A stretch of 64,000 bases of DNA from Branchiostoma floridae. Its lineage: Eukaryota > Chordata > Leptocardii > Amphioxiformes > Branchiostomatidae. This document shows positions 16,801 to 40,836 of the stretch, one piece after another. Below the pieces are notes generated by a model. That model searched no databases. It worked only from the letters and a program-made list of their open reading frames with translations, and was not told where the DNA came from. The position numbers and the translations under genes are program-made. The DNA lies in NCBI RefSeq assembly GCF_000003815.2, contig NC_049984.1, forward strand, positions 14,051,664 to 14,115,663. The letters run 5' to 3'. How positions within the stretch are numbered: position 1 is the stretch's first letter; each line of letters opens with the position of its first letter.

Positions 16801-16876
16801 AGGACCAGTGGCACTGTGTGTGTGAACGATGACCTTGTCTCAAAGGAGTATGCTGTGTACAATGAAGACAAGGAAG
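13844..16876 (+). CDS. TDRD12: TDRD12 exons 1-7: first Tudor region (aa 1-210)
   Basis: Exons are 13844-13864, 14218-14361, 14855-14943, 15244-15291, 15830-15949, 16327-16382 and 16724-16876. Residues 1-140 form the first Tudor domain: WYRVRV with FLLDYA is the WxRxxV and (F/L)xDY pattern that makes the methyl-arginine pocket. Residues 150-210 hold the conserved post-Tudor segment with GTVCVNDDLVSKEYAVY. Exon 1 is short; its donor is GTTTGT, and exon 2 begins after a pyrimidine tract. Confidence 0.9.
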
Positions 16877-19800
16877 GTGAGAGTTTTATCACAACACTAA
16901 CAGTCTGCGAGGGGATATTTATCATTGTCGATATAGTAATATGTTTTCTTTTGCATCCAGTTTTCAAAATTTCATTCATCATTTTATCCTATATTCATTC
17001 AACAGATCATCCAACTTTCATCATTTCATTTAACAGATTCTTTGAATGGTAAAGTGGTATAACAACGGTCTTACATGCTGTATTGCTCTGTATCTAGGTC
17101 CTCGCCAAGCAGCAAAGTTGGGGGCAGGAAAGACGAGTAACCTTCTTCATATTATCTTTGTTTCAGTGTTGTGGTCAAGTTAAGATTTGTGTCAACAGGT
17201 TTTGTCCATGTTATGTTGGCACCTTCCTTTTCTTACAGTTACAGTGCACCATAACAATTTACTCTAACAAACTGTTTTGCGTTTTAGGAATTGATTTCTA
17301 TCAGCAGATCTCTTTGTTTGTGTATTATTATTTGCTGTTTTAAGAGTCTAAATCTTTGTCATATATTGTTTTATATAGTCAGGAAAACTTAACAGCTGTA
17401 CGTAATACCGGCCATAAGATTCTTGAAAATTTGTGTGTTGATTACTGCACCAATATCAATAAATAGGAATCCTCTTTAAAATACTAATATACTGTATTTT
17501 ATCTCTTCATCGTCTTATGTATGATATATAATAGGTTGGCTAAATATTTTCCATCTCTTACAGTTCAGACAACCCCTGAGATTGTGAGGTCTCTTTCTCC
17601 AATGGCAAACGTCCCCAGCTGTCCCCAGCAGGGCGTGTGTCCCCTACCTCCCCCCCCACCTCTGTCACCAGCCCCTAGTGAAGAGTCTTCTCCGCCCAGC
17701 GGACTAGCAGCCATGCTGGGTCTGAGTCCATTGAAGGTGACTGAGCCAGTTAAAGCCATCCCAGCTGCCAACACACAACATCAAGTAGATAGAAAAGCAG
17801 AACAAGAAGATAGTACAGGAAACAACAGTAGCAGTGCTTTACCAGTTTCTGGTGCTGCTGCGGAACTGTCCAGATTAATATTGAAGTCTCCAGCTGAGAA
17901 GAATGGAGAGATTCTAAAGCAGCAGATATCTGTAGGGCATTCAAGGCAGAGTTCTTCTGTGACAACAGGCCCTTCTGTGAGGGCAAAAGAATCTGGGTAC
18001 AGTTTGCAGCGCAGACAAGGGATGGCAAATGGTGCAGGAACCCTTAAAGAACCTTCACTTAAGCCTGCTGGCAAGAACCTGAGTCCTAGAAGGATGCTCA
18101 AGGCAGCCCGTACTTTGCAGCCAAGCTCTGGACGTATCATAGGGAATGGTTGTATTGCTGTGAATCCCGAGTGTTTGAAAGGTAGCAGTCGTCAGGAATC
18201 TTCGTGGATTCCCGGTGCAATGAATGACAAATCTCTACAGCCAGTGGTAAGACAGCAGGAGGTCAGAAACAGGCGAAGTTTTCCACCAGATCAGATAAAA
18301 TCCACTGGACATGAGGGGATCCCAGGAAGTTCCCGATCTGTAGAGAGTAGGCTGAATGCAGCATATTCACAGACGTCGACATTGGGGAAGGAGTGGACAC
18401 AACTTGTGGATAAAACAAGACCTGTGAGGCAGAGATCATTGTCACCCATTCCTGTTAACGTTGGTACTGTTGGTGGTAATGCAAAAAGTCCTCCCATGCT
18501 TGGAAGTAGGGACTTATCAGCAAGTCCTAGAGTATCTCCAGGAAGGACCTCAGCAGCCAGTGATGCCACAAGTAGCCATGCAGTACATACTGCCCACAGA
18601 ACCAGTGCTGGTATGTCAGGAAGTGATATGCAAAGCACAGGGCTGACTCAAACTGCAGTTTTGGGGAATTCTGCTGGAAGGAATGACATCTCTGGTAGCA
18701 AGGCTGATAGCTCAGGTGGTGCAGCAAAGAGTGATGCAAAATCTGAAGGAAGTAGTATATCTGGTGCTGATGGATCCATCTCTGGAGGAGGTGATGAAAT
18801 GGTGACTCCATCTGTACATACAGGCTACACACCAGCGAGGCTGCCCCGGATCAACCTACATGGGAACCCACTCAGGGATAGGTAGAAGCCATAGTCTGTG
18901 TTGATGTTCTAACTTCACCTTGTTAAAAGCTGAGAAAAGCCATCACATACTAATCGTTATATATCCTAGACATGAAACATACCTTAATGTTATGTGATGC
19001 TTGTTTTTTTTACACTAAACAGTATTTCACCCGTAAGGTTATGAATATCACTGTAACAACACATGAAAATATTTAGTTGCTAAAGTCAACCAAGACGTCT
19101 ACACGTTGTTGCTTAGTGTAGTGTATCAGAGCCTGGCACCGTTTGTGTCTTTTGTACATTTTGGCAAATGTAAGCCAATTGTTGCATCCTGTACAAATTT
19201 GTTGCATTTACAGACAATGTAGTTATATTGTGCCCTCATTTTCTTCAAAGAAATACAAATTTGTACAAAGTGTTTGTTGTTCATGTTTGTCTCTGAAGTG
19301 TTCTAACACTGTGATGTTACTGTTATACATGTTTGATATTAACACTAACAGATCAGAAGAGTTCAAGACCCACATCTGTTTTGAGTTGTCAATGATATAG
19401 CCTCACCTTTAGATCTAATAGTAATAAAGCACCACTAACACATATTCAGTAATAGTCATCACATGCTCAGTTGTGCACCATGCATAGTACTCCAACCTTC
19501 GTACCCACCTACCTGAATTAGAACACCACATGTATCCACTTCATTGTCGAAAACAAAGCAATATAGACTGTAGACGCCATAAATGACACATTTGCCAGTG
19601 CAGAATATGGGCTGTGTGTCTGCTGAATGGAGAAAGATTAGTGTCTGTTGTAATGTCTTAAGTGTCTGCTCTGTACACAGACAAGTACATGCTCTTAAAG
19701 TTTCACCCCGGAGCTGTCTTGAATATTTCCTTTAACTTTTCTTTATTTAAGAGTCTTGTGCTGTAGCTGATGATCTCTGCCACTTTATATAGTTTCATTG

Positions 19801-22800
19801 CTATTTCTTTGCCACTCCATCTAGTTTCAGAGCTGTTTAAAGCTTTTTAGCCATTTGTTCCTTGGACATATCTTTTTTTTTCAAGCAGCAATCAACTTCT
19901 TCCCTCTTCTCCCAGCCTTTTCCCTTCACTTTCCTCTGGCTCGGGCGACCTCTCTACAACAGAGCCCTCCGCAAGTGAGGGAGAGGAGTCTCCTGTTCGC
20001 AGGAGAAACAAGGTTCCCAGTATCGGGGAGAGGCTGCTGCAGGGGCTGATGCCTCAGAAATGGGAAGAGCCCAGCAGAACACAGGCCCAGTTCACCAGCC
20101 ATGTAAGTTGTTAGGAAGGCACTACACAGAATGTCCTGTACTTGCACATATCAAGTTTGAAACATTTGATAAAAGTTATAACAGTTGTTTGGTGGGCTGT
20201 CTCCAGGACCCCTCCCTCCGTCTCAGGACAGAAATTTGCTTGTTGGGCTGGATATAAATTTCACCATGTTAAAATATCTGAGCTACACGACATGAAATGT
20301 ATAAAAATGTATTTTGCTAGCTTAGAATGACAACAACAAAGATCAACAACATTGGCACAATAACAAGAAGTTGGAAAAAATTTGAAGCTGGAGAGAAAAA
20401 TTTAAATCTCTGATAAACCTGTAATTCAGCTAAGACAGTAATAGACCAATGGCATTTTACTCATGTCACAATGTCCACAGCCCCCCTCTGGGAGTGGGAG
20501 ACCCTGGTCACTTGCCGGCCATCAGATGTCTGCAGTTGGTCAGTACGGGGATGGTGTGGCAGTGAAGGGGGACATTCCACCCAAACCCTACACCATGTTG
20601 GAGAAGACACCTTTCCCAGACTTTATACAACAGGTAGAAATAATGGAATGTACCACTTCTTTGTGTTACTAAGTCAATGGTATGATGACTATACCAGGCC
20701 AAAGGCATAATTGATGACAATGAATAAACTACCTAATTACCTATAAGAAAGATAGTAACATATCTTTGAAGTATTGCACTTTCTCTCATTGTCCTTGCAC
20801 GATCAGTGAATATCAACGCAATGTACGTCTTTGTAGCATACCTGACATTTTTTGTTTTATTAAAAACATTACATTTCAGAAGCATTGGATGGAGAGAGGT
20901 CACATACAAATGTAGCATGACATTCTTTTTCTAGTAGTAGTACCGACATATCATTAAAGCAGTAGATGCGTTTACTCATGTTCCATTTCTTTTCTTTTTT
21001 TCTCCTTGTGTCATTAGTACCTGATTTCCCAGGACTTCCCTGCACCCAGCAAGGTGCAAGCCTATTGCTGGCCAGCCATCATGAGGGGGCGTGACCTTGT
21101 TGCCATGGCACCAGCAAAGATGGGCAAAACCTTGGCTTACCTACTACCCTTGATGACTCAGCTTGCACAGACCGCTGGGATGGAAGGATTGCCAGAGGGG
21201 AATGGGGTAAGGGGATTTGAAAAAAAATTAAATTCAAAAGTCTCTTCCAGATGATATTGTGGAGGAATTTGTACATCCATGGCTTCATCAGCTTTCAAGA
21301 TAAAACAAATCTGTTGTCCTCCTCGTGCAAAGATTTTGTAGTATTTTTCTTTGCAGGAAGCTTGAACTGAATGTTAACTGGCACCGCCGTGTTAAATTAC
21401 TGAAAGACCCAACTTTTCTGTAATATGCATTGTATGATCATGTGGAGTTCAAAACTCTTGTCAGGGTAGTTAACTAGGATTCATCATCATCATCTTTGCC
21501 ACATGTAATGCGGATTTAAACTGTTTGAGATTGGGTCTGGTTTATCATTGGATTAAGTGTGAAATAACTTGTGAAAAATCAATAGTAATAAGTTTTAAGG
21601 AATAAGTTTTACTGTTAAACTGTAATGTTGACAATTGTTTCAGCCGAGGTCCATCATCCTGTGTCCCTACTGGAACACTGCACGCTATGTGTATGACCAG
21701 TGCTGGAACTACATCGCGGATCGGAAGTCTACCAAGGTGCTGCTCATCTTTGGAGCTGGGGCTGAGGATGACCAAATGGTACATAAATGTAATGTGGTTT
21801 TAAGATAATTTTAGGGACACTTTGTGATGTTTTGTATTCTTTGTTGATATATTAACGTGACATAAAAAAATACTGGCAAGTATTTTGGTGTTTTAAGAAC
21901 TGTAATTTTTGTTAATTGAGGACCTCCTATATGCATGTACCCCAATAAAAAAACTCTGCCTTGAAAGAAGTTGTTCTGATAATGATGCATATATAGAATA
22001 CAACACGGTGTATTCTGTATCACTCTTGGTACCAGAGGCTAGAGGGTGACTAAACCCACTGTAGGGCTGGGACCAAGAGTAAATACAGAATAGACCATGT
22101 TGTATTTTATTTATGCTATACCCACCCCCAAGGAAACACAGGTTTCCATGCGAAATGCACCAGAAAATTGTAACAACAGTGATTCCAAAGTCCAAATCAG
22201 GTGTTAAAAATTTTGGACAGTGTCGCATGCAAAGTGCAGTTGATTTATTTTATAAAAGCCTGTGTGAAATAAGTAGAACCCATGTGATATAGCAAGTTAT
22301 CACCCTGTCTGGAACACTTGTATGGAACGTTATCACGGCCCAGGTATAACGAAAAAGGGTATGAATGTACGTGTTGAAGTACAATGGTGTGTGCCACATT
22401 AAACTGTAATATCTATTCTTGCACGTCAGATTCCCCTGATCAATGGGTGTGACCTGCTGATAGCCACGCCCCGCTGTCTGCTGAGGATGTTAGAGAAGGG
22501 GTACACCAACCTGGACAGGCTGTGTCAGCTGGTGGTGGACGATGCTGACACTCTGACGGAAGTCTACACAGACGAGGTAGTTAGATATCCTGGAGACTCT
22601 CAAAGATGTCTTAGATATGGATGTTTTTCATCTACATGTGTGTTGTACGAATACTGATATGGATATATGTAATATGCAAGTCCACATCAATTCAATTAGT
22701 GGTTTGTCTGACCCAATGACCTATTTATCTTTTTGGTGTATTTCTTTGTCTGTGGTTCGCAGTATTTGATAGAAATTCTCTTTAGTATCTTTATGTCATG

Positions 22801-25800
22801 TGCTACTAGCAAGAAAATTGTTGAAGGCATCATTATGGATGCTGACTTTTGCTAACTGAAGGATCTTCATGTACCTATGATAGGTACCGGTAATCCTCCT
22901 TTTTGTGTGCAAGCTTGAAGCAGGGTAAAGTGGCCTATTGACTGATTTTAACTTCTCATGAATAAACAAAGGTTCAAATATAACCTAAGAATAAGACTAT
23001 CCAATTGAGTTAGTGTTGACAACTGAGGATGTTTGTTGCTAAGGATTTGTTGCTCTACATGATGTTGTAGATTAAGTCCTTGATGAGGCTGTATGGTAAA
23101 GTCATTGCTGACCAGCCTGACCGCAGCGCACCCAGACAGATCGTACTGATGGCCAGACAGTGGACAGCAGGGATCGAGTCCTTCCACAGAGCCTACATGA
23201 CTCAGCCTCTCCTGGTCTTCACCAGTAAGGTGGAGGAAGCTGTGTACAGTAAGGTCAAGCAGGTGGGTTGCCTATGTGCACACCAAATCTTGAAATATTT
23301 GTGGTCTGTTAATTAAACATCTCTGTAGTTGTTGCCCTTACCTCTCCATCACCTTCCCCCTATTATTTTGAAGTGTGAGCAAAACTGTAGCCTCTACCAG
23401 CAGGCTCTGTTGGCTCAGTATGGGTCACATACTGACTCCCTGATATGGCTGGCAGACTCCCTTAGCACACTTTCCCCTCTATTTGTCCAATTTCTACTAT
23501 TTGACCAGCATTCCACAGAGCCTGGTAGAGGCTAGCAAAAATGAAGAATTTACAATATGTCAAATTTTTAAGAATGTAACAAATTGTACCTACAGTTCTC
23601 AGCTTTTTATGCTCTATTTGAGTATATAAGATAACAGAACTTTTTGCACTGGTACTCTGGCATGAAGGAAACTTGTTTCTTGTTTGTTCCTGTCCAGTTT
23701 GTGTTGGTGGTTCCGTCTACTTTGCGGTACACCCAGCTCCTGAGCTTGCTGGACCAGTGTGAGGGGGCAGGACACAAGATTGTGGTGTTTGTTGGGTCTG
23801 ATACAGAAGCTGAAGATGTCACACAGGTAGGAAATGGATACCGGTACAAGTGTTTTATTCAAAGCCTGAGTTTGCTGCTTTCAGCTCCAATAATGGTACA
23901 GTCTCTATTGTTTTGCTACATAGACACCTGTTCTTTATAATACTGGGGTGCCTCAGAAATGACATGTGCTTGAGATGGTTATTTTAAAAGAAGAAATATA
24001 GCTTTTGAGAGTATGCATTTGAATGAACACAAATGAAACACTGACATATAGTTTCATTTCTGTATTTAAGACACAGTAACAATAGTTCCTTTTTACTGCA
24101 TGAAATTGGCATGAAGTTTCACTTCCCTAAGGATAGACCAAGGAGGATTGTGGAGTGGGGTGAGAGTTTTCATGATGTAATTTTTATGTTTTCTATACAG
24201 TCATTTTGTTTCTTGTGGCCATCAGCACTTTTCGTCATTCTCACACTTTCTTTTCATTCTTTTCTCTTCAACAATTCGTTTTTCATTCTTCTACTTTAAA
24301 CAATCACCTCTACCACCACCCCTATCATAGAATCCTTATGGTCTAACCACAACTTAGAGTGCTTTACATTCATAGCTGTTGGTGTAGAAGGGGTTGGTAA
24401 TGAATGATTTATGGATGACAAACTTCATGATAGGTAAGTTAGAGTTGTACATTGTACCATTACATCTTGTTACATGCGATAAGACCTGGCTAAGCGTTTT
24501 TATTAACAGTCACAGCACTGTACTGGCTTAAGTAATTGGTAAATATTCCTATTTTCAAGGACGTAAATACATTTGTTAACAACAACACAGGGGCAACCTA
24601 ACCATGGCAATATTTTTTTACAGTGCTAGTGTTGTTTTAACTTTGTAACTTGGCAAGTGAAGACTTAGATACTCAAAACAAAGCCCATGTAACATCAGTT
24701 CTAACTGCATTAGACTTTTGTTGATGAGGAATGGTTCAGCAGCAGGTCTTTGTACTCAGCTCCATTGGGTTGAGACATAAGTTTTCCTTTGTTTGTCATG
24801 GTCAGTACTTCATGTAGCGTACCATCAGTGGTTTCTAATTCATCTTGCACACCACCATCAACAGCAGACCTTAAGTTTGAGATCAAAAACAAATCATGGT
24901 TTTATTGCTTTGATGGTCAAGAAATCTACAAAATGCTTACATGAATGCACAGTATATTAGTACATTACTGGTATATGTATGTTAAAACTGTTACCTTGTA
25001 CTTTGCAGTTGAATATAGAGCCAATATGGGCAGCATTTTCTCCCTAGCTGTGATGTTTATCTGCTGTAGTAATTGAATGTTTGATTTCACTTTGTTGTTC
25101 AGTTCTTTTTTTTTTATAGACCTTATCAGTATGGGTTGTTCATATTATGCAATGACAGGGTGATGTAACATTTCCCTGTCTTTACCTTGAAGTTATTGAG
25201 GAGATGATCACCATGGCTACCGCTGCTAAGACCGCAACCAGTCCAATCACTGCAACCACAATGCCAGCAATAGTCCCTGAGTGTAATGTACCTGTGGTGT
25301 GATAACTTAATATGTTTACTTCTATATAAAAGCTAGAACTAGCATTTCATAATGTAGTTGTTTGATATGTAATAATTTATGGTACATATATGCTGTTTTC
25401 ACTAGCGGTGACCATTAGAAACATGTAAGATTAAGGCAGAAAGAGGTTTGTTTTCCATACGAGTCTGTGGTATGCAGGTAGAAATATGATCAACATATAT
25501 CCTACTTTCTTTTGAGGGTTTAGGGAAGGAGGGCTTTGATGCATGGAAGTTTTTGTTGGGAGTCACAACAGAAGATGGGGATTCCCTTTCTGAAAGGAAA
25601 AGTCCATTTGTAAACATTCCGGAATGTATGTTGCTCCCAATTATCTATTGTAGCATCCTTTAACCACCCCCCCCCCCCCCCCTCTGGAAAGACTTTTATC
25701 CTACCTTCATTTGATGGATTATCCAAGGGGGTCCTTGATGTAAAGAAGATGTTTTTGTTGTCTGGAGTCACAATAGAAGAAGTGGATTTCCTCTCTGAAA

Positions 25801-28800
25801 GGAAAAGTACAAATTTTGTAAATATTTACTGAATATATCTTGCTACCAATCATCTATTGTATGTTAGCAGGACTCTGTGTCTGTGAATCGTACATCGCTT
25901 AAGCCTGTTCGCATGGAATGATAAGAATACATAATTGTGAGTCTCAGATCATAAATCTTACAGGTATGCTCCCTGTGGCCATGATAATCTAAATCATACA
26001 TATACTAGTATTTAGATTGTGGAGTAATGTACATGTACATGACCTCTGTATTAAGCTTGGGCATATGTTTTTAATGCTGCATTGGCTTACATGTCAAAGA
26101 AAAGTTATAGTCACTAGTAAGGTTCCAAACCTAAACATGAAGCAGTAGCCCTATGTTTTGAGAGGGCACCTCAATAGCATGTACATTTGATATTGGTTTA
26201 TCTTTGTTGCTTAGTACACATTTCAACCATACCCCTAGTAACAGTGATGTTGAAGTTGCATCTCACTCCCAGGTGATAGAGTGGTGGGGGTGATAGATGT
26301 ATCAGGAACCTGAAAGGGCCATTTGCCCAGTGGCTGATGTTGGTGATGGTCAAGATGATGTCTAGTTCTCCAGGTCTTACTCTCTCTTCCCTCACACTGA
26401 CATCAGGGAAATCCAAGTAGCTGGCATTGGCACCACCCATGCCTTCAGAGGAAGAAATTTTTGAGAAAGTCTTGTCTTCAACTTAGTTCAAGTGCAACAT
26501 TTTACATGTCATGTGCATACCTTGCACAAACCAGTGGGTTTAAATCTGAATGTACATGATTTCAGCATGCAAAGACTTTTGAAAAATGTTAGGATTGAGG
26601 GTAACAGAAACTTTAAGACAATATATGTTCTACATACCACCATTTTCATAGAAGGAAATGATCTTGAAATCTCCTTCCTTTTGAGCTGGTGTCTGCCCAA
26701 ATAGTTGGACAGTATATGATGAGTGATCATCTGGCACTCCAGTGGCTTTGGCGACAATAGAGAGGCTGGCACCGTCATGAACCGTCTGGTTTGGAGGACA
26801 TTTGTCGAAAACAATAGATCCTATAAAACAGAATCATGCTTAACTTACTAGTATTGAATATGCTGTTGCTCATTAAGTGCTTACAATTACAACATATACA
26901 TTTCAAACACGTAATGTCAGGCCCTTTGTGTAAATACTACTAAGTTCTGTGACTGGGTTTTAAAACATTTAAGATTTTTTTAAAAGATACTTTACACTTT
27001 TCTACAGTGTATAAAAGAGGTCATTGACATGAGGCTTTGGTGTCAAGTATGACCAGCCTAGAAACATACACTTGACTAGTTTGATACCCTGACATGTTCT
27101 TATACAAGTCTGATTGATTAGTATAGATAGTGACAGATATGTATAGTACACATTGCTCATGGATTGAATACTTACCATTGATACCTCTTTTATGGGGATG
27201 CAAGAAAAGTTTAACAGAACTGGTATTAGTTGGTTAAAGAATCTTTCATTTGAAATTTGATCATTTGCATTCGGACTGTCTTCATGCCATGCATAAGAAA
27301 AATATAGGCAAAACCATCATAATTATCATCATCATCATCATCATATATTATAAAATGATATAATGTAAATTACCATTTTTGTCAATTGCTCCACTTCTTA
27401 AGATGCTCAATTTTATGTTATGTATATGGTGAAAATATCAAGATTCTTACCTTTTGCATATGGCAGCAGACAGGTCACAAGGATTCCCCAAAACTGCACC
27501 ATGATAACCATCAAGCTTTCTGTGAAAAGAGGATTCTTTGTGTCAATGTATTTTATGCAAAGAAAAGTTGATTTTAGGCCAAAGCAATTTAACTTGTTCT
27601 TTTAAAGATAATGCTGGGCCAGACCCTGAAAACAGAGTAAAAGGTCTGTCCCTTGGCACACTCATGTCGTTTTGGTCACAACAAAGTCAGCTGCAAAGTC
27701 CCTGCCTTTTTTTCGTGTTTTGGCTGCCTGTTTTGTCCCATACTCAGCAAATGAAAAGCATATTCTGGCCACTTCTTATGCCTCTGTGAGTGCTCTGTCG
27801 GAGACAAGCCCAGTCAGGCTCAGGCTATGTTTCAGGCTACCTGTACATTACAAATTAACTTATTGTGTACACAGCTTTTCATGCATGAATAGATGACCTT
27901 CTCTGTTTGAATAGCTTCCGTCACTAACAACACACATACCTTTTGTGCCATTCTATTTTTACACCACAAGTTAAAGGCCACTCACCTGAAACTGCGAATG
28001 AACCGGAAATAGCCGTAGGCCTTTATTGCGCCTGCGTCCACATCTGCGCATTGCATGACGGTTGTTGAGTTTAATGCCACATGAAAAGACATTTTTCCTT
28101 GATTCTTCAGATTAACAGAACAAAAATGAAATATCAAGTTAAAAATTTATGCAGACCAAAAGCTCTTCCTAGTGGCACAGAGACAGAAAGTTTTTTCAAT
28201 GTGGTGTAGTTCCTTCACAGTCTGCTAGGTGGTGCTTATTTCTGAAAATTTGGTGTTGGTTCGTTTGTGTGACTGTAGACATTGTGCATAAATTTTATAG
28301 TTTTGGCATGTAGGTATAGATGATGGTATCATGCTCTTATTGTACAAATTATGACATCATTTGCATAACGTAATTTGCATATTTAAAGCAACAAGAAAAT
28401 AGTACAATGCACTAATGATTGTAATAATATATTCATTAATTTTGTAGGTTAGAGATGAATGTCATTAGATGTAGATTAAGGAATGACTGAGTGCCTGCAA
28501 AATTACAGCTTTAAGATTTGTTATTTGTACTATGCAGATTGCTGATGGATATTTTGAACCCTCAAGAGATCGATACTCAAATTTAGCAGAATTGCCATTT
28601 AAAAATTTTGCAAATGAAGAGTAAAGACTAAAAGTTATATTAAGCGTGAAAATAAAAGTCCTAGGTGGCACTGCAATAAACTGGAGCTGAAGTGGAGTGA
28701 ATTAGTGGGTATTGTGAGAAATAAATTTAACTTTCTACAATATGATAAATGAATGCACGATTGAGAAGTAGGGCTTTATTGGACAGTAGGGGACAAGACT

Positions 28801-31800
28801 AAAGCGAAAGAGAGCTAGGATGGATTTTGTGTAAAATGTATTTTTTCCCTCGATTACAATCACATTTTGGTTCAAAAGAAAGGTCTCTTTTGCATAAGGA
28901 ATGTTTTGAGAGCTAACAGGTGTTGCAAGAATCCTTAAGACGGCAAAATTGTTGAAGCTAAACAAAATTTCACGACCATTCCCACCACCACAGAAACACA
29001 ATCCTTCTTTATCTGTGCAGATATGCATTTGCCTTCAGGTGAGAACTTCTGCATTTTCTTAAGAGATTTAGTTAATGACAGTGAATTATTTTTCTGTGTT
29101 TCAGCTCCTCAAGAGCTATAGCCACTCTACGCTGTATGCTCATACGGACCTCCATCAGTATGAGATAGACAAAGTGAAGAAAGAATGGTCGACACACCAC
29201 AGCCGAGGCTCCCAGCCTGTCCTGGTCATGACAGACACAGTCATACAGGACCTGCACATCAGGGACGCCACCTGTGTCATACACTACAGCTTCGCACTCT
29301 CTCCGCTCAAGTTCAGCGCACGGCTGGGATGTATGTCTCACAGCTTCAACAAGGATGCTACCAAGGTTTGCGATTCAGATCTTAGGCCTTCACTGAGTTG
29401 TAATGACATGTATTTCAGCAACTCAAAGTTGACTAAAGATGAAATCAGTCATGACGTATGGTAGGCATGTATTGTTGTCTGGGTGTGATGTAATTTTGTT
29501 TGATGTCATTTTCCCACTTCTCTGTCAGTAATGCTTTTTGACGACGCCTCAGGGGAGTCGTCAAGTGGTATATTTTGCATTCAGTCTGCAAAAATTCTAG
29601 GAATTGCACAGGCATTTCCACAGGAATGCAGTATGCTGGGTATGCAAGCCCTCCCCCCCAAATCTGTTCCAGATGTATCTCTGGTATGCAATGGTGGAAT
29701 GTAGGTCACACTTGCTCCCTGGAGGAATTTGTCCTTTGAAACTAGACAGGGAACTCTGCACAATGGATCACGTTGTCTTGGTTGTTGTGTTATGTTATGA
29801 AGGATACATTTTCTTTTCTAGAGCTTGTTCAAGCCATACGCCACAGGCAGACAGGAAATACTTCTGTAGTGCTCAGCTTTAGGTTTAGGTCACTGGCAGA
29901 CCATTGTGCTGTACCGGGGATAGTACATTTCTGCTGGCTGTAGGTTTATGTTACATGTGGGCTAGTATTTTGTGCCAGGGATAGTGCGACAGGGAAGTTC
30001 CAGTCTATTTCTGATTTGAGCTGTATTGTTGTACCCTCAATCGTCGTCATGGCAATAATACATTTTTATTGCCAGTCTTGTTTGTAGTTATTTCTTTCTA
30101 CAAACAGCTTTACTTAATGTATAGACAGTTATGCTGTTGTAAATATGACTTGTTCAGGAGAAGACGAATGGAGACACAGGCTGTGTGTCTAATAATCTCT
30201 CTTTCTACGAACAGCTTTAATAAATATATACATGACAATCATCATGGATTTTTTGCAATGCCCTTTGTACAATATACACTGTACCTGTTGTGGACATGAC
30301 TTGTCCAGGAGAGGAAGAGTGGAGACACAGAAATGCATGTCTAACATAATACTGACCCCTTCTCTATTATGTTGCACAGGAGAAGAAGAAAAGCCCAGGC
30401 TGTGTTTCGTATATCCTGGTGACGGAGACCTGTACCACGTTCCCCGTGGGCCTGCAGGAGATCGTGACCCTGTTGAGGAGGTCAGGAGGTCATGTGTTGC
30501 AGGAGCTGTTGGACATGTGCAACAAGGCCTGGCTGGTGGGTAAAAGGGTTCACTAAGTCATTTTCACAGTTGATGATGATGACAAAAATAATTGTTCCTT
30601 AACTATTAACCTAAAAAGATATGCTTCAACATTTTTTTATTACTTTGACAGTGTATCCTCTTGTAATTCTTTCAATCTGGTCTGTCCCTTTAATTAACAC
30701 TTATTCTATTCTAAAGAATGTGGATTCCTATGATGTTTGACTCAGGCTAAGCAGGTTGGGAGAGTGGACAACAGTTTCTGCCATGCTATGAAGGCATTTG
30801 GCCACTGTGCTGAGCAGGCCAGGTGTAAGGCCAGACATGTTGTACTACCAGAGGTGGACCAGCCAGGGGAAGGGATGCCTACTGTAGGATATGTGAAGGT
30901 GAGAAACCTACTTGTGAACAGAAAATAAAATTTCTGTTACTGGGGATGTTTTGTCATCTGTACAGTAATGCTCGTAGGTAGCCTGATCTTATCCTTCCAA
31001 GTGACTGCTGGCTCAATACTTTCACTGAGTACCAGTAACCCAGCCAGCGAAAGTATTGAGCAAGCAGTCACTTATCATTTGGTCAGGGTAGCTAGTAGGA
31101 TGTAGTGAGATTAACACCCAATATTACTGCTGAAGTGAAATTGAAGAGATTAGTTGGCGTATACTTGACATTCTTGTATAGCTTTTAACACAGTCTGTTT
31201 CATTGATGCACATGTATGGCAGTTAGCATTCCAAAGTAAGAATAGCTATCCTATACACATTTGCATCCAGTCATACAAAAATGCAAGTCATTGTAATGCT
31301 CAAACAGTTACCTTTATGTGGTGCCTATTTTGTGTACCTGTAAGTATTTTTTTTTCATGACTGAATGATGAAATTTTTAAATTGTCAGGTCCTGGTGACG
31401 CATGTGGTAGATGCCAATTGTTACTATGGACGTATTGTTAAACACTGGGACTGGGACAGGAGGGCGGTACCCAGGGAGAACACGTGTCTGCCTCTTATGG
31501 CAGACATAGGGCTGCACTACAGCAGACAGGAGAATAAAGTACCAGTCTGTAAGTACATCTACAGCATGTATAATTCAATGTCCAAAAGTATGTGTATGAG
31601 TATGACAAAATTTAGTATGTCTAGATCAGTTGGTAGAAAAAGTAGTAAAGAAGAGGCTTGCCACAAATTGTTGGGAGTTGAAGCCTTTTGCTCATTGTCT
31701 TGACAAAATTTGTCTGGTTTGTTTGTTAATAACTTAAAGATTATACGAAAATTGTAGCCAGATTAAATCTCACTTATAGCAGCCTGCTCAACGTTTGGCC

Positions 31801-34800
31801 TGCCTCCTAGAAGGGGAGGGGCCAGTTACAGCCCTGGACAGCAGAGTTTTTGTTACACAGACTAATTTCTCCCCTCCCCATGTTTTTCAGCTGGGAATGT
31901 GCATTGAACTGTAATGATATAAAAAGAGAAACAATAATGACAAATGATATTCTCCTTCCCCAGTGACAGCCCAGGTAGGTGACATGTGTGCTGTACGGGA
32001 CATGCAGAACACGTTCCACAGGGTCCGGGTCACCAAGATCACAGCTACTGACTTCACCAGCAGGGCCAGGGTCTTCTATGTAGATGAGGGGAAGACAGAG
32101 GAACTGGAGGTTACAAAACTCCTGGTACTACCAGAACACTTGGCAACAGTACCAGCACAGGTACAGTACACGAATGTGTGTGTGTTTGTATGTCTTTGTA
32201 TGCATCTGTGCGTGTGTGTGTTTGTGTGTCTCTCTCTGTCAATCCCTTTGTGTTTGTGTGTGTATGTTAGTGTGTGTGTATGTGTGTGTGTGTGTGTGTG
32301 CGTATGCATATGTGTCCTTTGCATGGCCATTGGTTTATTGGACAAGGTACGCTTTAAATTTAAAATTCTTATTGAAGTATGATATGCAGTACTGTACATG
32401 TTGGACATGAATAAACTTAGTCTTATCATAGTCTAAACTTAGTCTAATCTTAGTCATTTATTTCTTTTATATTACCTAAATCTGAATGGTTGTTGCACAC
32501 ATGTCCCCAGGCTGTGGAGGTATTTCTCTGCGGAGTGTGTCCAATTGATCAGGACAAGCAGTGGACAGACAAGGCCTCGGCCTTCACCCATGCACTGGTC
32601 AGTAGCAAGGAGCTGGACGGCAGGGTGGCCCTGTGGTCAGTAGAAACAATTACTTAGTAAACTAGTCTTTAAGTCTTAACCTTCTCCTTGCTGTAATAAC
32701 ACTCTGGCTCTTTGAACTGGTTATTCCAGTGCTGGCTCATTGTATTGGTTATTTCAGTGCTGGCTTGTTGTATTATATCAGGCAGCTAGAAGATTAAATC
32801 ATTCTATGTAATAGTTCATATAGTATGTTCTAAGTCAAGCTTGAAACTTACTTGAACCACAAACATTATACATTTGTCTTACATGTATCTTTGATAGAAG
32901 ATTTGATGTTGATTGAGTACACAATTGTTGTTACTTGAATGTTAAACAAAAGTTGTAACACCAATCTGTTTTCCCCTAGTTTGGGGCACACCTTGTGGAT
33001 GGAGTCCTTGGTGGAAAGAAAAGTTTTACCAGGCATCAAAGCTACAACCAATAAACACAACATCAGGAGGGAGCTTGTACATGTATGCCTGGCTGAAAAC
33101 AACCCAGATGTAGGTGAAATCTTTGCATTTCCTCTTATTCCTAAAACATCTTCCCTCCTTTCAGGATATGTAGTACTGTTTGATATGGTGTTGTATGCAT
33201 TGGCATTGTCAGATCAGTGACATGTAACGGAATATCTATTTGTTCCTGTAGGAAAGATTGTTCCATTGACCTAGAAAGAGTTATTTGATATACTTATTAT
33301 AAAAGATGGAGATTTTGATGGAGTAAAGACGTCTCACATAACCTGGGGAGATATCGTGATCAGTTTGTGGATCAAATTGGCATGACAACCCTGTATGATC
33401 TTTAAACCCACTGACAAGTATCATAATCCCAACACATTCTTTGATTTCCAGCATGTATCTCTCCTGAGACAAGCCTGTGATGGAAAGATTACCCTCCCTG
33501 AGTACAAGCCTCCATCTAAGGCTCCCCCCGCCAAGTCTGGGCTGAAGTACAGCAGAGCCAACCCTCCCCCTACAGCCACCCTGCCAGGGGGTGGGTTTGA
33601 TGAGGTGTATGTGTCAGCAGTGGAGCATCCTGGGTTGATGTATGTGCAGAGAAAACACTATGCCAGGAAGTGAGTTTTTCAAAGTATCTTACAGCAAATA
33701 TTTAGATACAATTTGAAAAGAGACACAATGCATGTTTTGTACTCAGCCTGTTTAGAAATAGTCAGCCTATTTAGAAATAGTCAAGACTTGGATTCAAGTA
33801 GCCTCTTTTTACAATTATAATGTTTATCACTGACACTGTTCATTGTCACATGTATGTCTCTTATGTATCCCCAATGTACTTGCAGTTAGCTTCTGGGTAT
33901 GAATATGAACTTAATGCTTGGTACATCAGACATCTTCTGGATCTTTGGTTTGAAAAAGAAGGTCTTTCTATTTTAAGTTTACTCACAGTAACACATCCTA
34001 TTGTCTATACATTGTGTAAGGTATTGTTTAAAATTTCTTACATGACTTTGTGTAAAATTTGACAAGCATTTGGGAACACTGAATTTGGAGATGATTTACC
34101 TGAGATCTTGGTACAGTCACCAGTCTGTTAGATTTTAGATGTTAAGAACTTTTTACTGTCAAGTCTATTCACAACATATTTACTCGTGTGTGTAAGGCTG
34201 GAAGTTCTGACAGCAGAAGTCAACAATGAGGAGAAGCTTGCAGCTGCACCTGCGCTGCAGCAGGTAGCACCTGGGCGGCTGTGTGTCGCTGTCTTCCCTC
34301 AGGACAACAGGTAACGTTATTCTTTTCAACAGCCACTTTTTTTTTTTAAATCAAACACTGAAACCGCCAGAACACTTTGCAACATTGCCAGATTTCCTGG
34401 GGTTTGTTTAAACTTGAAACTGACGGGAAACTCAAACTCAGGCAAGCTACCAGGCCTACTTTGCATAGCAATGCTGATGACCCTGACTGTGCTTACATGC
34501 AGCACAGGATCAAACATATGATATCATATGTTATGGGACTAAATGAACACTAGCACCCATTTTCCATATATTCTTTGCTCTAAGAAAATTAATTACTGAT
34601 TTTCTAAAAACATTTATCTAATGTTTAGTCAATAATGTCCATACCAACTAAGTCCCATAAATTCCAGCTGTTTTCAAGAGTACTTTTTACCATAGTAGTC
34701 AGACAATGTGTTTATGATGTCAGCATAAACAACAAATCTATTTGCATGGTAGAACAGAAAAGTTAGAGTGCCTCTCAGACTTGACCTTGATTACCTGCTG

Positions 34801-37800
34801 ACAGATGGTACAGAGCTCGGGTAGAGGAGCTGCAGGGTGACGAGATGTGTGAGGTGTTTTACCTGGACCATGGAGATACAGCTATCATCCCCAGGAGCTC
34901 CTTAAAGGAACCATGGAAGGAAGTCATGCAGGTAAGTGTGAAGATTTTAGCTTCTTTGCACCAATCAATGGGATGTACTGAAGCGAGTGTGAAAGAAGGT
35001 ACAATGTGTATTACATTACAGGTTTGATACTGTTTGTTGTCATAAGTTTCCTGAGATTCCGTGTACTTCCTTTACTCTTACTGTACTTTAGTTGGACACA
35101 GAGATGACTGGTACTTTTCCATTTGTACCACAGCTTCCCTTCCAAGCCATCGAGGCCTGCCTAGGCTCTGTCCAGCCCCTGCATGGCCAACAGTGGACAG
35201 AGGAGTCCGGTGACGAACTGTGGGACATGGTGTTTGAGAAAATGCTATTTGCTCAGGTAAACTGCACTGTTGATATGTAAAAAAATGCACTTGTTGACAG
35301 ATCAATCATGATAGCTGGATAAAAACTACAGCTTACAGGGCTTGAAATACCACCTGCATACAGGTTGGTGCAGGTAAAATTTGTGCCCCAGGCATTTTTT
35401 TTCATTTCTTTATATCCGCCCCTAGAATTCACAATATTAGTTCACTTTTAGGGAGAATGTTTCATTTTCGCACAGGGGTAATTTGGAACAGTTCAGTGTT
35501 GCATGGGAAGGGGTATGGCTAAAATATGCTGTTTTTGCTCTCAAGCAAATGTTGGCCTTTCTAATTACATTTCACTTTTTCTTGTTGTATTTTGGTCAGA
35601 TATCTTTCATGATTAATTTCATTGATTATGAGGATCTTTGTTGTTTGATTTTTTGTGTAGGTCCTGTCTGTTGGGCCCTCTGAAAACGGGAATGCCAATC
35701 GCTACAAACTCGAGCTGTATGACACATCAGCAGAGTATGATATTATCATCAGCCAGGAGATGGTCATGCAAGGTCATGGGGTCATGTCGGGGTCACCAGA
35801 GTTTATCAACCTGCTGTTTCCCATGGCAAATGACCCTGCTTGGTTAGTTCTACATGTTTCACATTAACTATTTGTATTACAATAACTATGTTAATTATCT
35901 ATATCATTTTGTACTAACTTTGTATACCAAAGACTCAATGAAGTCAATGATGTCCCAGAGACTTGGTAGAAATCCAAAGTCCGTGCCTCATGTGGACCAA
36001 AATCCACATCTGAAGCTCAAAAGGTCTTCAGTAGAAGTACCTATTAAAGATTTGTTTTACATTAAAACTAAAAAGTACTCTTGCTGCAAGGTTTTGAATT
36101 TGCAGTGCAATTCATATCTTTATCTTTATTAACTTGTTTTGTTCAGGCTTGAGTCCCACCCTACCCCTGCAGAGCAGATCAGTCTCCTGTGTGCACAGCT
36201 GTGTCAGACTTCTGACCCAGAACACATGGTGGGCCTGGCTAAGCAGATCGACAGCGTTGTCATCAACAACCCTACGTGAGTTCTTCCTGTCTCTGTCACT
36301 AGATGGTATGACAGATTTATTTACAGTGAAATGTCAATCTGGACTCATCTTGCCATTGTTGTAAATGATCATCTGTACGTTATTCACCATATCAGTGATA
36401 ATAAAATGCGACAATAGCCTCTGTTTCTATAGATTTTTTTCACTGGTCATTGAACATGTTAGGGAATACAAATACTCAATTTTATACACAATTTCCTACA
36501 CAATTTAGTTTTTCCTATTTTGCCACAATCTGAATCTGTATGTACAACTTACGAACACAACTCTTATTGTTTCAGGAAACATGAGACCATGCGAGAGACC
36601 AGAGGAGTGAGCTCTGTGTGCCTGATACTGGGGTACTGTATGGAGCCTGCCGTGTTGGAAAACCTGGCGGTCAGTCTGGGGCACATGGTCATCAACAGTC
36701 AGGCCAACTGTGAGGAGGTCAGGACCTCTGGTGGACTCAGGACACTCTGTAGACTGCTGAAGAAGGTATGGCTGATGCTGAAGTTTTTTTTGGGGTGTAA
36801 TTTCAAAGCTTTCATCTCAGAAACATCGCAAAAGCACATCTGAGTAACATGTCCTTGGTGCTGAAGTGCCTTTTGCCGGATTAGTCTTGGATATGGGCTG
36901 GTAAAGGCAAGTCTGTCATGATAATGTCATTCTTATAAGTTATGTTTTTTGTGTAACTTATAATACACTATTTGTTGGATGAAAATAGAACACTGCCCTG
37001 GTGCTGAATGTCTCAGGACATCATCAGGCATCACCAATTTAATTTGTTGGTTCATGGATTTTCAAAGAATAAAAAAAAACTATCATGAAAACAAAACCCA
37101 AGGACCAGGTTTATGCCTTGGTGCACTCAAGTTTATGGAGAAGACATGGTCATATTCAAGTTTTCCTCCCTGCCTGTTGCATTTATGATGTCCGCATGCT
37201 ATATTCACTATTTTCACTTTCAAAAATCTATAAACCAAGATATTAAATTGGTGTGGCCTCATGCTGTTAAAACATGCATGACGGTTCTTTGGTTTGTGCT
37301 TTGCAGGACTATACACCAGAAGTTCAGAAGCAGCTGGTATGGGCCCTGAAACATCTGGCTCTGAATGAGAAGAACAAACAGGCCATAGAGGAGCTGGGTG
37401 GGCTGAGAACTCTGTGCCAGCTTCTGGCAGACACTGAGAGCGTGCAGGTCCAGGAGAATGTGTGTCGTTGTCTGGGCAACCTTGTCACTGAAAATAAGAA
37501 GTAAGTTATGTGTCTGAGATCACAGCCAAAAAAGAAGTGTTCTGATATGATAGTTCATTATGTTTTTAAGTTCTGTTCAACATATCGCCACTAGCAATGT
37601 TTAGAGCAAAGCCCTTTAATTTTTTTTCAGTGCTGATGATTATGCTTTTACAAATTTTCTCGGCATTGTATGTCTATTGGTCATGGCTTTTAGTATGTGA
37701 TCAAGGACCAGGTTACCTTTGCCCAATAAGAAGTGCCTCCTATCTCCTTGACAGAAACTGCAGTGCAGTTGCAGAGTGCGGAGGCCTGCACACCGTATGC

Positions 37801-40800
37801 CAACTGGTCAAGGGCTGTGCCAACAACATGGTATTGGAGCATGCCCTACATCTGTTAGGGCAGCTTGCCACACTGTCTGCTAACCGTGCAGCCATCATAG
37901 AGGAAGGAGGTGTGGAGATGTTGTGTGAGAGGATACAGAACAGCTGTGGTGACAAGGTTCTGGTGCAGGCTCTCAAGGCACTAAAGGCAGTCATCTTCAG
38001 GAGTGAGGAGAATGTAGCTGTCATGGTGGCCAGGAGTGGAGTAAGAGAAGTGATGGAGAGGTGTGTAACATGCTGTGCCTTCTAATGACATTTTAAGGAT
38101 TTAATTAGGGTTTAATGACATTTTTAGGGTTTAATGACATTTTTAGTTTCTTTTCAGGCAGTCATAAACAAATATGAAAATCAGGAACATTTTCTAAGAG
38201 ATCCTAGAACTGTCTGGTGGAGATTGTACATTGGGCCAGGTTTTGATAATACAGTGAATATTGTAGTTTTCCATTAATTTTGTATTTTGAGAAAAAGTTG
38301 TTGAAGTCTAAACTCAGCCAGGTGTATGTTTTCCATAGTATTCTATCTTTGCAGTATTGAATAGAACAATGTTTGTATCATATATGCAGGTATGCCTCCA
38401 GCCACCCGAGTGCAGAGATCAGTAGGCACTGTAATGACCTGCTGTCCAAGTTTGGACTTCCCTCAAAGCCTGTCACTCCTCCTGCAAAACCACCAATCAA
38501 TCATTTCAATGGTAACCAATCAGGAGTTAATACAAGTAACCTACTCCCCTCCCCTAAGCTGAATTCCAGCCAGTTGGTTTCTGGCATGAACAAACCAAAC
38601 TTCTTTCATCATTCCAGTCCTGTCCAATCAGGATCAAGCAAGGGCAGGCCAACAGCCTCCAATCTAAATTCCAACCAATCAGCATCTCTCATTAAGAAAC
38701 CCAGTAGGTCTCCTCAGCTCCCGACTAGGCAAACTACCTCTGGTGTTAACAGTCAAAACTTCTCCCATCCTTCAAATTCAACCAGTCGTAATTCAGCCAC
38801 TCAGTATCATGATATCAGTACGAGGAAGGCGCAGGTTTTGGCACATCACTGGGAAAGGCACAGGACAAGGAAACCAAATCTGGAGCCTGTTCCAGAAGGG
38901 AATGGAGAGGTGCATCTAGATGATGATAATGGTGATGATGATGATGACTATGATGATATGCCACCATTGGAGACAACAGAAGACGAAGAATCCCAGGTAT
39001 CTACTAATGGTGACCACAAAGTTCCAAGGTGAGATTATGAGATGTACTCATCATCTTTGTTACTGTACTGAAATTTTGTCATCAGCTCAGATACGAGAAT
39101 GTTAGAGGCAGGCAATCTTCTTGGCAATGATGGAACCTGGTATTATATGATTAACCTTCCCTGTTCCTTCCCATTGACAGCCTTCATCCAAAAGTGCTGT
39201 GGTCCCAGCAGAAAGAAACCGTGATGCTGAGTGTACAGCTGCGAGGGCTGGTACAAAAACCAAACGTTACCTTCGTGCCTACAGCTTTACACTTCAGGTA
39301 AGGCTTATTCACGTTCAGATCCAAAGCTCAAGGTATACAATATATAGTAATATAGTAACTAGCTGCAGGGTGGAAATGATTTGTGCTTGGTCCAATTGAC
39401 TCATGAGACTTTTCAGATTTAGAAAGCTGTTGTGAGATTTTAAATATCCACACATAAAAAATGCTTAGGCCATCATTAGGAGACATAAAAGGTAATTGAA
39501 ACCAAAACAACTTTTATAACATTTGCTCTTAAATGCATCCATGGTATCCTTCTTCCATGTGCCTAACTCCATACCCAATGCAATCCCATAGCAAGCCAAA
39601 TGGCTACCTTAATAGGTTGAAGGTCAAGTCAAATCTGCACATAGTACTGATGAGTTGTTCCCTCCATCCCAGGACGTTCTTCAGAGGCACAGACTACAAA
39701 CTGAACCTGGACCTGTACGACAAGGTGGTGCCTGATGGATGCACCTGTCGGCTCACAGGAAGTGATGTCATCCTGACCCTGAGGAAGGAGAAGCCAGGAC
39801 CATGGCCTCGACTCTCACGAACCAAGGCCAAGGTTAGTAGTATGTTTCCCTTAAAACTTGTGCGTGGAGGTCGTGTTTGTTCTTGTGACAACAGAGAATA
39901 CATAGTGTATATCTTTTACCTTACGCATCCCCGGCCCCGCCTTGTAATTAGCCATCAAAAGGGTATGTCACCCCGTAAGGGGCGGTATCACCCCGTCGTG
40001 TGTAGACATGTGCGAACATGTGTGATCACGTCGACCGATGATGATGATGATGATGATATCTTTTTAGATGTACATGTTCTGTTTTGTTTGAAAAAAAACC
40101 ACAATGATACACTGTCAGGGACACCTTCTAGATATTTGTACATTGAATCATTATTGATTTTCGTTACAATCTCCAATCTACAACCATTCATGTTCTTTTT
40201 ACGATGCCATTTCATGGTTGGTTGATGGACATGAAATAACATTGAGACCCCCATTTTATTTCAGTATAAAGTTTGCCAGTCAGAGGTTCTTAAGATTCTT
40301 AAAAAATTTCTTGCTCCGTCCCCAGCAATTTACTGAATGGATTCAATTTGATATATTTTTGTTCTGCAGTACCCATGGCTTGGAATAGACTTTGACAGAT
40401 GGGAAGATGTTCCATCGGACACTGAGTCAGAGTCGGATCCACAACAGGCTAAAAATGTGCCACCACTGGAACAGCACAAACATAAAGGTTAGAGCCAGCT
40501 TCCTGACTGTCAAATTATTTAGTAAAATTAATAACTATCTTTGTGTCAGCTTTTTTACATTCTGTCTAGTTGAATGTATTTGCCAACTGTGCCAATTTCG
40601 TTGCGCACAATATTTCCTATATTCTTTTTTCTGAATATTGTGTTTGTATGTTGTGTTTTTGCTATGGAACAGAAAGAGGAGGTCTGCCATCAACCATGTG
40701 CAACGTGCTCCTGCCAGAAATGGACATGTCGTCAGACACCAACAGTCACCTCCACGACTCAGATCACTTCTCCGACTCGGACGGGGAGGTGGGAGGCTCG

Positions 40801-40836
40801 GGGTACAAGATCGACCCACGCTTTATTGGGCTCTAG
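13844..40836 (+). CDS. TDRD12: TDRD12-like Tudor/helicase protein (36 exons, 2347 aa)
   Basis: Thirty-six exons join with consistent phases into 7044 nt ending in TAG. Orthology with TDRD12 rests on several anchors: start MEITILKVVKADHFWAK, FMQLPWQAKEFRLYGLQPVTL (the family has FMQLPYRAKKF), VCVNDDLVSKEYAVY, RDATCVIHYSF, and the CCCH finger MKAFGHC. TDRD12 acts in germ-granule piRNA biogenesis, feeding secondary piRNA production. This protein is longer than the vertebrate form (roughly 1200 residues, from memory) because of a long linker after the first Tudor domain and a C-terminal extension with armadillo-like repeats and a CS domain. Intron 15 (23827-29104) contains an antisense gene. The start codon was chosen because it aligns with the vertebrate N-terminus; the first coding exon is only 21 nt. 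Domain blocks are listed separately. Confidence 0.93.
17564..20102 (+). CDS. TDRD12: TDRD12 exons 8-9: Ser/Pro-rich linker (aa 211-712)
   Basis: Exons are 17564-18881 and 19916-20102. The 1318-nt exon 8 encodes a low-complexity, probably disordered segment rich in Ser, Gly, Pro and basic residues, starting with a polyproline tract (PLPPPPPLSP). Exon 8 ends GATAG|GTAGAA: without this splice the frame would stop two codons later, and with it exon 9 continues the frame (FPSLSSGSGDLSTTEPS). Exon 9 ends near the helicase. Rapid divergence is expected for such linkers in Tudor proteins. The exon 9 acceptor (CTCCCAG) is inferred from frame. Confidence 0.8.
20481..29365 (+). CDS. TDRD12: TDRD12 exons 10-16: DEAD-like helicase core (aa 713-1114)
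   Basis: Exons are 20481-20633, 21018-21206, 21644-21778, 22430-22576, 23071-23262, 23698-23826 and 29105-29365, all phase 0. RecA1 has a Q-motif-like stretch (FPAPSKVQAYCWP), Walker A APAKMGKT (aa 794-801), IATPRCLL for motif Ib, and DDAD (aa 908-911) in place of DEAD. The SAT motif is replaced by LMARQW. RecA2 keeps the fold (VLVVPSTLRYTQLL, DATCVIHYSF), but motif VI, normally HRIGRTGR, reads ARLGCMSH. So nucleotide binding may persist while coupled unwinding is doubtful. Exon 16 is separated from exon 15 by a 5.3-kb intron with a nested gene. Confidence 0.92.
21987..22116. repeat. Foldback repeat in TDRD12 intron 12
   Basis: Two arms of about 45 bp are inverted: GAATACAACACGGTGTATTC on the left and, mirrored, GAATAGACCATGTTGTATTT on the right, with TACTCTTGGTCCC-type inner ends. 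The unit could extrude as a hairpin. It has no coding capacity. Confidence 0.6.
23398..23535. mobile_element. Short TIR element in TDRD12 intron 14
   Basis: TAGCCTCTACCAGCAGGCTC at the left is mirrored by GAGCCTGGTAGAGGCTAG at the right, 138 bp in all. No coding content is visible. Confidence 0.6.
24710..27511 (-). CDS. Nested type I membrane protein, unidentified (7 exons, 297 aa)
   Basis: Minus-strand exons are 27511-27451, 26820-26638, 26442-26233, 25794-25705, 25589-25506, 25291-25186 and 24869-24710. Together they make 894 nt with every junction in frame. Residues 1-20 look like a signal peptide (MVIMVQFWGILVTCLLPYAK). The ectodomain has only two cysteines (28 and 143), so possibly one disulfide as in an Ig-like fold, and sequons NQT, NAS, NIS and NIT. 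A 24-residue hydrophobic segment (about 217-240, IAGIVVAVIGLVAVLAAVAM onward) precedes an acidic 57-residue tail with a YKDLLL tyrosine/leucine motif. The whole gene lies in TDRD12 intron 15, on the opposite strand. I do not recognise the family. A minus-strand AATAAA occurs near 24500. Confidence 0.78.
25506..25794 (-). repeat. Tandem duplicated stalk exon of the nested gene
   Basis: Exon 4 (25794-25705, ERKSTSSIVTPDNKN) and exon 5 (25589-25506, ERESPSSVVTPNKN) are clear duplicates, and their acceptor tracts (CTTTTCCTTTCAG) are also alike. Both are 1-1 phase, so either one or both can be spliced in without a frameshift. A poly-C run lies between them (about 25668-25682). Confidence 0.75.
30380..30898 (+). 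CDS. TDRD12: TDRD12 exons 17-18: CCCH zinc finger (aa 1115-1217)
   Basis: Exons are 30380-30535 and 30746-30898. Exon 18 encodes a CCCH finger with spacing C-x8-C-x5-C-x3-H (Cys1178, Cys1187, Cys1193, His1197), in FCHAMKAFGHC followed by CKARH. The same spacing occurs in vertebrate TDRD12. CCCH fingers generally bind RNA; a function here is inference. Exon 17 finishes the helicase C-terminal lobe (VSYILVTETCTTFPVGLQE). Confidence 0.88.
30978..31094. repeat. Foldback repeat in TDRD12 intron 18
   Basis: GTGACTGCTGGCTCAATACT and, mirrored, GTATTGAGCAAGCAGTCAC form long arms around a short loop. The ends are GTAGCCTGAT and GGTCAGGGTAG. Confidence 0.55.
31389..33109 (+). CDS. TDRD12: TDRD12 exons 19-22: second Tudor region (aa 1218-1421)
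   Basis: Exons are 31389-31548, 31964-32160, 32511-32635 and 32980-33109. This is an extended Tudor unit: a leading SN-like part (VVDANCYYGRIV), then the core FHRVRVTKI with ARVFYVDEGKTEEL, where the Tudor Asp-Tyr/Phe-Gly pattern is V-D-E-G, then LPEHLATVPAQAVEVFLCGV typical of the staphylococcal-nuclease-like half, and LGHTLWMESLVER. The donor of exon 21 is the uncommon GTCAGT. Intron 20 holds a TG microsatellite (about 32177-32310). Confidence 0.9.
32177..32310 (+). repeat. TG-rich microsatellite
   Basis: Imperfect (TG)n with a pure run near 32280-32300, in TDRD12 intron 20. Translations of it are low-complexity and not coding. Confidence 0.9.
33452..35842 (+). CDS. TDRD12: TDRD12 exons 23-27: third Tudor region (aa 1422-1676)
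   Basis: Exons are 33452-33669, 34197-34310, 34805-34931, 35134-35256 and 35661-35842. A proline-rich hinge leads into FDEVYVSAVEHPGLMYVQ, the usual start of an extended Tudor domain. The core is RWYRARVEEL with CEVFYLDHGDTAII, a near-canonical methyl-arginine-binding pattern. LPFQAIEACLGSVQPL follows as the SN-like lobe. This copy looks better preserved than the second Tudor. It lies downstream of the point where the vertebrate sequence I recall ends, so it may be a genuine third unit in this lineage. Confidence 0.88.
36147..39028 (+). CDS. TDRD12: TDRD12 exons 28-32: armadillo-like repeats and Ser/Asn linker (aa 1676-2162)
   Basis: Exons are 36147-36275, 36576-36765, 37307-37500, 37755-38060 and 38390-39028. 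From about 1720 to 1965 there are armadillo-like repeats of roughly 42 residues, each with a leucine-rich helix and an N-x-x-x-I/V-x-x-x-G-G-(L/V) turn: ANCEEVRTSGGLRTLCRLL, NKQAIEELGGLRTLCQLL, NCSAVAECGGLHTVCQLV, NRAAIIEEGGVEMLCERI and a weaker last unit, ENVAVMVARSGVREVMER. Helices such as VQENVCRCLGNLVTENKK complete them. Armadillo repeats form protein-binding superhelices. The rest of exon 32 is Ser/Asn/Pro-rich and ends in an Asp run (about 38918-38960). Both flanks are in frame with the Tudor and CS parts. Confidence 0.87.
37027..37258. mobile_element. Decayed copy of the GGCCACACCAATTTAAT family
   Basis: Left end ATCACCAATTTAATTTGTTG and right end ATATTAAATTGGTGTGGCC match the element at 6577-6934, with losses at the left terminus. 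It lies in TDRD12 intron 29. Confidence 0.6.
39181..40836 (+). CDS. TDRD12: TDRD12 exons 33-36: CS domain and acidic tail (aa 2162-2347)
   Basis: Exons are 39181-39297, 39673-39832, 40370-40487 and 40673-40836. The CS (CHORD/Sgt1, p23-like) fold is indicated by HPKVLWSQQKETVMLSVQL, then VTFVPTALHFR, LNLDLYDKVVPDGCTCRL, VILTLRKEKPGPWPRL and finally YPWLGIDFDRWED. Such domains often contact HSP90 or its partners; insect Yb-type TDRD12 relatives are also known to carry a CS domain. The tail is Asp/Ser-rich and the stop is TAG at 40834-40836. Confidence 0.92.

Follow-up and report, generated by a model that had tools for sequence, protein, structure and literature searches.

Introduction

The closest described systems to the protein considered here are TDRD12 and the Yb, SoYb and BoYb proteins. 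The table of a 2025 survey of Tudor proteins assigns TDRD12 and Yb-SoYb-BoYb a single T3 Tudor and a DEAD domain (PMC12147562), and a section of a review gives Yb as Hel-C, DEAD and eTud (PMC6958439); in these parts of the two sources the family consists of Tudor and helicase elements and carries no Armadillo (ARM) block, which agrees with the view taken in an initial annotation of the DNA studied here. We analysed a 64,000-nucleotide stretch of the Branchiostoma floridae genome (C6:14051664-14115663; the window), in which a TDRD12-like gene appears to encode ARM repeats that follow the last Tudor domain and precede a C-terminal CS domain.

To our knowledge, how TDRD12/Yb proteins choose their partners, and how the handling of PIWI-interacting RNA (piRNA) precursors is coupled to PIWI loading, is open. 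An ARM groove flanked by the best-matching Tudor domain on one side and a p23-type Hsp90 module on the other would offer a concrete, testable docking site, and the distribution of the block among animals would show whether TDRD12 has been reduced in vertebrates.

The ARM block

Our reconstruction of the gene returned the same exon coordinates that the initial annotation had given for an armadillo-like repeat block (36147-36275, 36576-36765, 37307-37500, 37755-38060 and 38390-39028; exons 28-32 of 36). The Pfam Arm profile matched a 253-residue block in four stretches with E=4e-23 (81.1 bits against a cut-off of 20.6), and matched three stretches with 1.6e-19 when the block was searched inside a 1401-residue piece. 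Taken by exon, the profile matched exon 30 alone at 9e-13 and exon 31, extended into the first part of exon 32, at 7.3e-6 (both above the cut-off), and exons 28-29 alone at 0.024, below it, by which measure the core of the block is strong and its ends are weaker. Among the best 60 of 165 matches in a PDB sequence search, designed ARM proteins led, followed by Vac8, ODAD2/ARMC4, importin-alpha and beta-catenin.

A tandem period of about 42 residues is expected of the Armadillo repeat. We found a period of 43: the autocorrelation at this lag was 0.51, a value reached by 0 of 2000 shuffles, whose maximum was -0.17. By hand alignment the block divides into six units, of which the first and the last are degenerate; the four to five repeats counted earlier thus fall within the range of the four Pfam stretches and the six hand-cut units. 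The exon limits proposed earlier (36147-39028) stand. The ARM repeats proper, however, reach only from about 36163 to 38459, and the final ~190 residues encoded by these exons form a linker with an acidic run. In our model the ARM residues are numbered 1695-1985, about 20 higher than the 1676-1965 given before. Codon use trained on exons 1-26 only scored exons 28-31 at +13.4 to +24.0 in the frame used, and the guanine-cytosine content at third bases was 0.56 in exons 1-27, 0.63 in exons 28-31, 0.42 in exon 32, which carries the linker, and 0.59 in exons 33-36. As far as sequence comparison can, these results confirm that the exons encode a genuine ARM block, beyond chance.

Flanking domains and comparison with known families

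By Pfam, the chain runs from a Tudor domain through a degenerate DEAD helicase and two further Tudor domains to the ARM block and the CS domain (Table 1), so that the block lies after the last Tudor domain (which ends at 35842) and before the CS domain, as had been proposed. The TDRD12/Yb-like composition was likewise upheld. A DEAD-type helicase core is preceded by one Tudor domain and followed by another (the Helicase_C half stays below its cut-off), and the helicase motifs are altered, with KMGKT, DDAD and MAR in place of the GSGKT, DEAD and SAT of DBP2 (alignment read by eye). Such altered motifs we take to be typical of the TDRD12/Yb family, and a C-terminal CS domain is presumably a further feature of it; an open-licence literature search pairing TDRD12 with the CS domain returned no match. 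No TDRD12 chain was among the PDB matches listed for Tudor 3, Tudor 2 or the helicase.

The CS domain matched yeast Sba1 (2.2e-10) and human prostaglandin E synthase 3, or p23 (3.5e-10), and both the domain and the C-terminal p23 motif WPRL...DFDRW are present. To judge by the match through this segment, the domain is p23-type, which is more specific than a generic CS assignment. The likeness to the p23/Sba1 Hsp90 co-chaperones extends over the domain and the segment; p23 is, however, a small, free protein, whereas here the CS domain is embedded in a chain of 2360 residues.

The protein thus resembles TDRD12, Yb, BoYb and SoYb in having a Tudor domain, an altered DEAD helicase, a further Tudor domain and a CS domain. 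In contrast to the family as the two sources cited above describe it in the parts concerned, with Tudor and helicase elements only, it adds the ARM block and a third Tudor domain. Among the matches listed for the open-licence literature we found no ARM block in TDRD12, and in the excerpts of papers that mention both TDRD12 and armadillo the two words stand in unrelated places. For the TDRD12 family we found no description of an ARM block placed as here, after the last Tudor domain and ahead of a CS domain of p23 type, where it may add a docking surface.

Table 1. Features of the TDRD12-like gene, in window coordinates
Feature	Coordinates	Strand	Exons	Basis and remarks
TDRD12-like gene	13910..40836	+	36 coding exons	2360 residues; 5' end uncertain; hand-pruned from 46 exons
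N-terminal Tudor	14218..15949	+	2-5	Pfam TUDOR 1.4e-14
DEAD helicase core, altered motifs	20481..23826	+	10-15	Pfam DEAD 1.3e-20; DBP2 alignment
Diverged Helicase_C	29105..29365	+	16	Pfam 0.0033, below cut-off; 3' end picked from seven in-frame donors
Motif with CCCH spacing (C-x8-C-x5-C-x3-H), after the helicase and ahead of Tudor 2	30779..30838	+		Pattern written after the sequence was seen
Tudor 2	31548..33109	+	Core 19-20; probable extension 21-22	Pfam TUDOR 2.5e-9
Tudor 3, extended type	33587..35842	+	23-27	Pfam TUDOR 9.2e-27; best PDB match TDRKH 1e-17
Five-exon cassette (ARM and linker)	36147..39028	+	28-32	Phase 2/phase 2; 1458 nucleotides = 486 codons; skipping gives a product whose sole stop is terminal
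ARM block of six units cut by hand (outer two degenerate)	36163..38459	+	28-32	Pfam, PDB, alignment, period
Ser/Pro/Asn-rich linker ending in acidic run	38460..39028	+	32	Disorder judged from composition
p23-type CS domain, tail WPRL..K.PWL..DFDRW	39181..40411	+	33-35	Pfam CS 8.8e-7

The PDB matches of Tudor 2 were weak (a beta-glucosidase at 0.0075, which we take as chance, and SND1 at 0.021). The C-x8-C-x5-C-x3-H spacing between the helicase and Tudor 2 resembles that of CCCH zinc fingers; it occurs once in the window, where 0.27 occurrences are expected, at least one occurrence was seen in 25 of 100 shuffles, and Pfam gave no match there. Between Tudor 1 and the helicase, a single 1.3-kb exon (17564-18881, + strand) encodes a Ser/Pro-rich, probably disordered stretch.

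One gene or two

The gene was reconstructed by a splice-aware search of our own making, in which the weights of splice sites, the amino-acid frequencies and the preferences at third bases were set a priori. The raw search gave 46 exons, and hand editing reduced these to 36, encoding 2360 residues in a single open frame: nine exons were dropped (16-21, 23, 34 and 35 in the raw numbering), raw exon 22 was shortened, and the final two were exchanged for an alternative ending at 40836 (raw score 598.4 against 601.2 for the best). The pruning was guided by domain continuity and, for raw exons 16-21 and 23, by a presumed likeness to vertebrate TDRD12, which served as a pruning aid and not as evidence of orthology. 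The claim of a frame continuous over 36 exons accordingly holds across the ARM block, where the frame is open, while the total of 36 is a plausible but soft count of a hand-pruned model; exon 1 and the first methionine are guesses. The domains lie in the order given and in an open frame, and a single transcript would join them.

In a held-out test, codon use was trained on exons 1-26 and the search was run from a fixed start at exon 23 under seven settings. Eight, eight, eight, nine, ten, ten and ten of the ten exons 27-36 were recovered exactly, with exons 27-31 and 33-35 recovered under every setting. Under all seven settings the model with one gene also outscored a split at the border of Tudor 3 and the ARM block, with a margin of 12.8 to 19.2 units; as both the score and the penalty for a new start were our own, this is support rather than proof. 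Exons moreover bridge the domains: exon 32 carries both the final ARM helix and the linker before the CS domain, and in exon 23 Tudor 3 begins behind a stretch that, on inspection by eye, we took for the last part of Tudor 2.

The same data bear on the alternative that two adjacent genes have been wrongly chained, the first TDRD12-like and closed by a stop at 35867, behind Tudor 3, the second lying downstream and encoding the ARM block and the p23 domain. Exon 27 has a weak donor (0.2), read-through from it meets a stop after eight residues, and intron 27, of 304 bases, contains ATTAAA motifs at 36043 and 36061, all of which leave room for a gene that ends before the ARM block. However, the acceptor of exon 28 is good (3.7) and its phase matches, and an in-frame stop just upstream of exon 28 means that a separate gene must start within this exon or beyond (at 36226 in the best split model). 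The split models score lower throughout, and a CS domain belonging to the Yb/TDRD12 family, as we assume, would put the ARM block inside the gene. We consider two genes improbable.

We favour, with some reserve, a single gene whose ARM block would serve to dock proteins. Besides the features of intron 27 just described, several observations weigh against it. Exon 32 was split in four of the seven held-out settings, the last exon differed in three, and the three loosest settings produced 18 exons against 14 in the model; exon 33 scores +4.5 in its own frame but +3.5 in another. As to docking, the ladder of asparagines expected along an ARM groove is imperfect, repeats 5 and 6 having A and K at this position, and the tryptophan position is occupied by Trp in one of six repeats. 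Armadillo repeats form a right-handed superhelix of three-helix units; a single-sequence fold of exon 31 predicted helices, with an uninformative predicted local distance difference test score (pLDDT) of 47. The cage of Tudor 3 was judged by eye only.

Origin of the block

Exons 28-32 form a cassette with phase-2 introns at both ends, and so could be inserted by exon shuffling or skipped in frame. Indeed, joining exon 27 to exon 33 keeps the frame and leaves the neighbouring domains intact (Tudor 9.3e-27, CS 7.2e-6).

Genome searches were run on the assembly of 513,431,437 bases in 431 contigs, and scored few candidates (21, 5 and 11); the search with the CS domain was without any free p23 gene, though one is expected. 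Besides its own exons, the ARM block matched only one gene (30% identity over 118 residues, E=3.2e-4; 11 candidates scored), which Pfam identifies as ARMC5 (6.2e-86). Of the family-specific Pfam models, ARM_ARMC5 likewise fitted the block itself best, with 2.4e-16 and 60.4 bits, below the cut-off of 79.9. The ARM domain of ARMC5 is among the closest known counterparts, though a distant one. For the helicase, ARM and CS parts alike, the gene's own exons were the only close matches in the genome, the others being at 26% and 35% (helicase) and 30% (ARM). The gene is single copy as far as these shallow searches reach.

That the ARM block was recently duplicated in this genome was rejected, as the 11 candidates scored yielded its own exons and the one 30% match. 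Comparison with fetched ARM loci gave weak matches: with nine loci, two of 697 open stretches fell below 0.01, and in a second comparison, with 15 regions and L039, two matches fell below 0.001.

With only a distant genomic match in ARMC5, the block is either old or fast evolving. Quite possibly it is of long standing and a regular component of TDRD12 across many invertebrates, unremarked because the vertebrate and fly copies lost it. The distance of the ARMC5 match, which speaks against recent duplication, and the four introns that interrupt the block are consistent with such an age, but a young, fast-evolving insert would look equally distant. An insertion specific to cephalochordates, through exon shuffling, is a more tentative explanation: the symmetric 2-2 phases of the cassette suit it, though such symmetry arises about once in three by chance, and no recognisable recent donor was found in the genome among the candidates scored. 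It is a speculative and rather unlikely extension that the ancestral animal TDRD12 was a chaperone scaffold for PIWI loading, with Tudor, ARM and p23 domains on one chain, which coupled the recognition of methylated PIWI to Hsp90 before the ARM block was lost in vertebrates and flies.

A possible docking arm

If one gene encodes the whole chain, its C-terminal half could form the docking arm of a TDRD12/Yb-type piRNA-pathway protein, composed of Tudor 3, the ARM superhelix, the flexible acidic linker and the p23-type CS domain. Tudor 3 would grip a PIWI protein by its methyl-arginine tails, an extended segment of this client or of a partner would lie in the ARM groove, and Hsp90 would be contacted by the p23 domain. 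PIWI, still empty, would in this way be offered by the scaffold to the Hsp90 loading machine. The N-terminal Tudor and helicase half would serve RNA handling and granule assembly. In this scheme the binding partners and the action of Hsp90 are inferred, and the Hsp90 step, taken by itself, is a tentative proposal. In mouse, according to a passage of one report, Hsp90 alpha and its co-chaperones are required for normal piRNA levels, and fly and silkworm Hsp90 have been implicated as well (PMC4231750).

The proposal for the groove comes from its ladder. ARM grooves frequently hold extended peptides through an asparagine ladder, and at this position repeats 1-6 of the block have H, H, N, Q, A and K (register set by hand). 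The H, H, N and Q of repeats 1-4, together with the one Trp, are what a peptide-binding groove might show, and make an extended ligand across these four repeats plausible. The block could instead be a structural spacer or a granule anchor that binds no peptide, as the imperfect ladder and an almost neutral net charge (-3 in 291 residues) might suggest. Since the ARM consensus is strong, and best in exon 30, we regard a spacer as unlikely and retain the docking groove as our working proposal.

Neighbouring features in the window

Upstream of the gene, stretches at 5465-6589 (+ strand) carry a glutathione S-transferase C-terminal domain (Pfam GST_C_2 4.5e-8). Just beyond the gene lies an inverted repeat (42582-42776) with 64-nucleotide arms that are 78% complementary and 67 nucleotides apart, which looks like a small hairpin element. 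Further downstream, a long open frame at 56611-57354 (+ strand) resembles, by eye, a retroelement reverse transcriptase.

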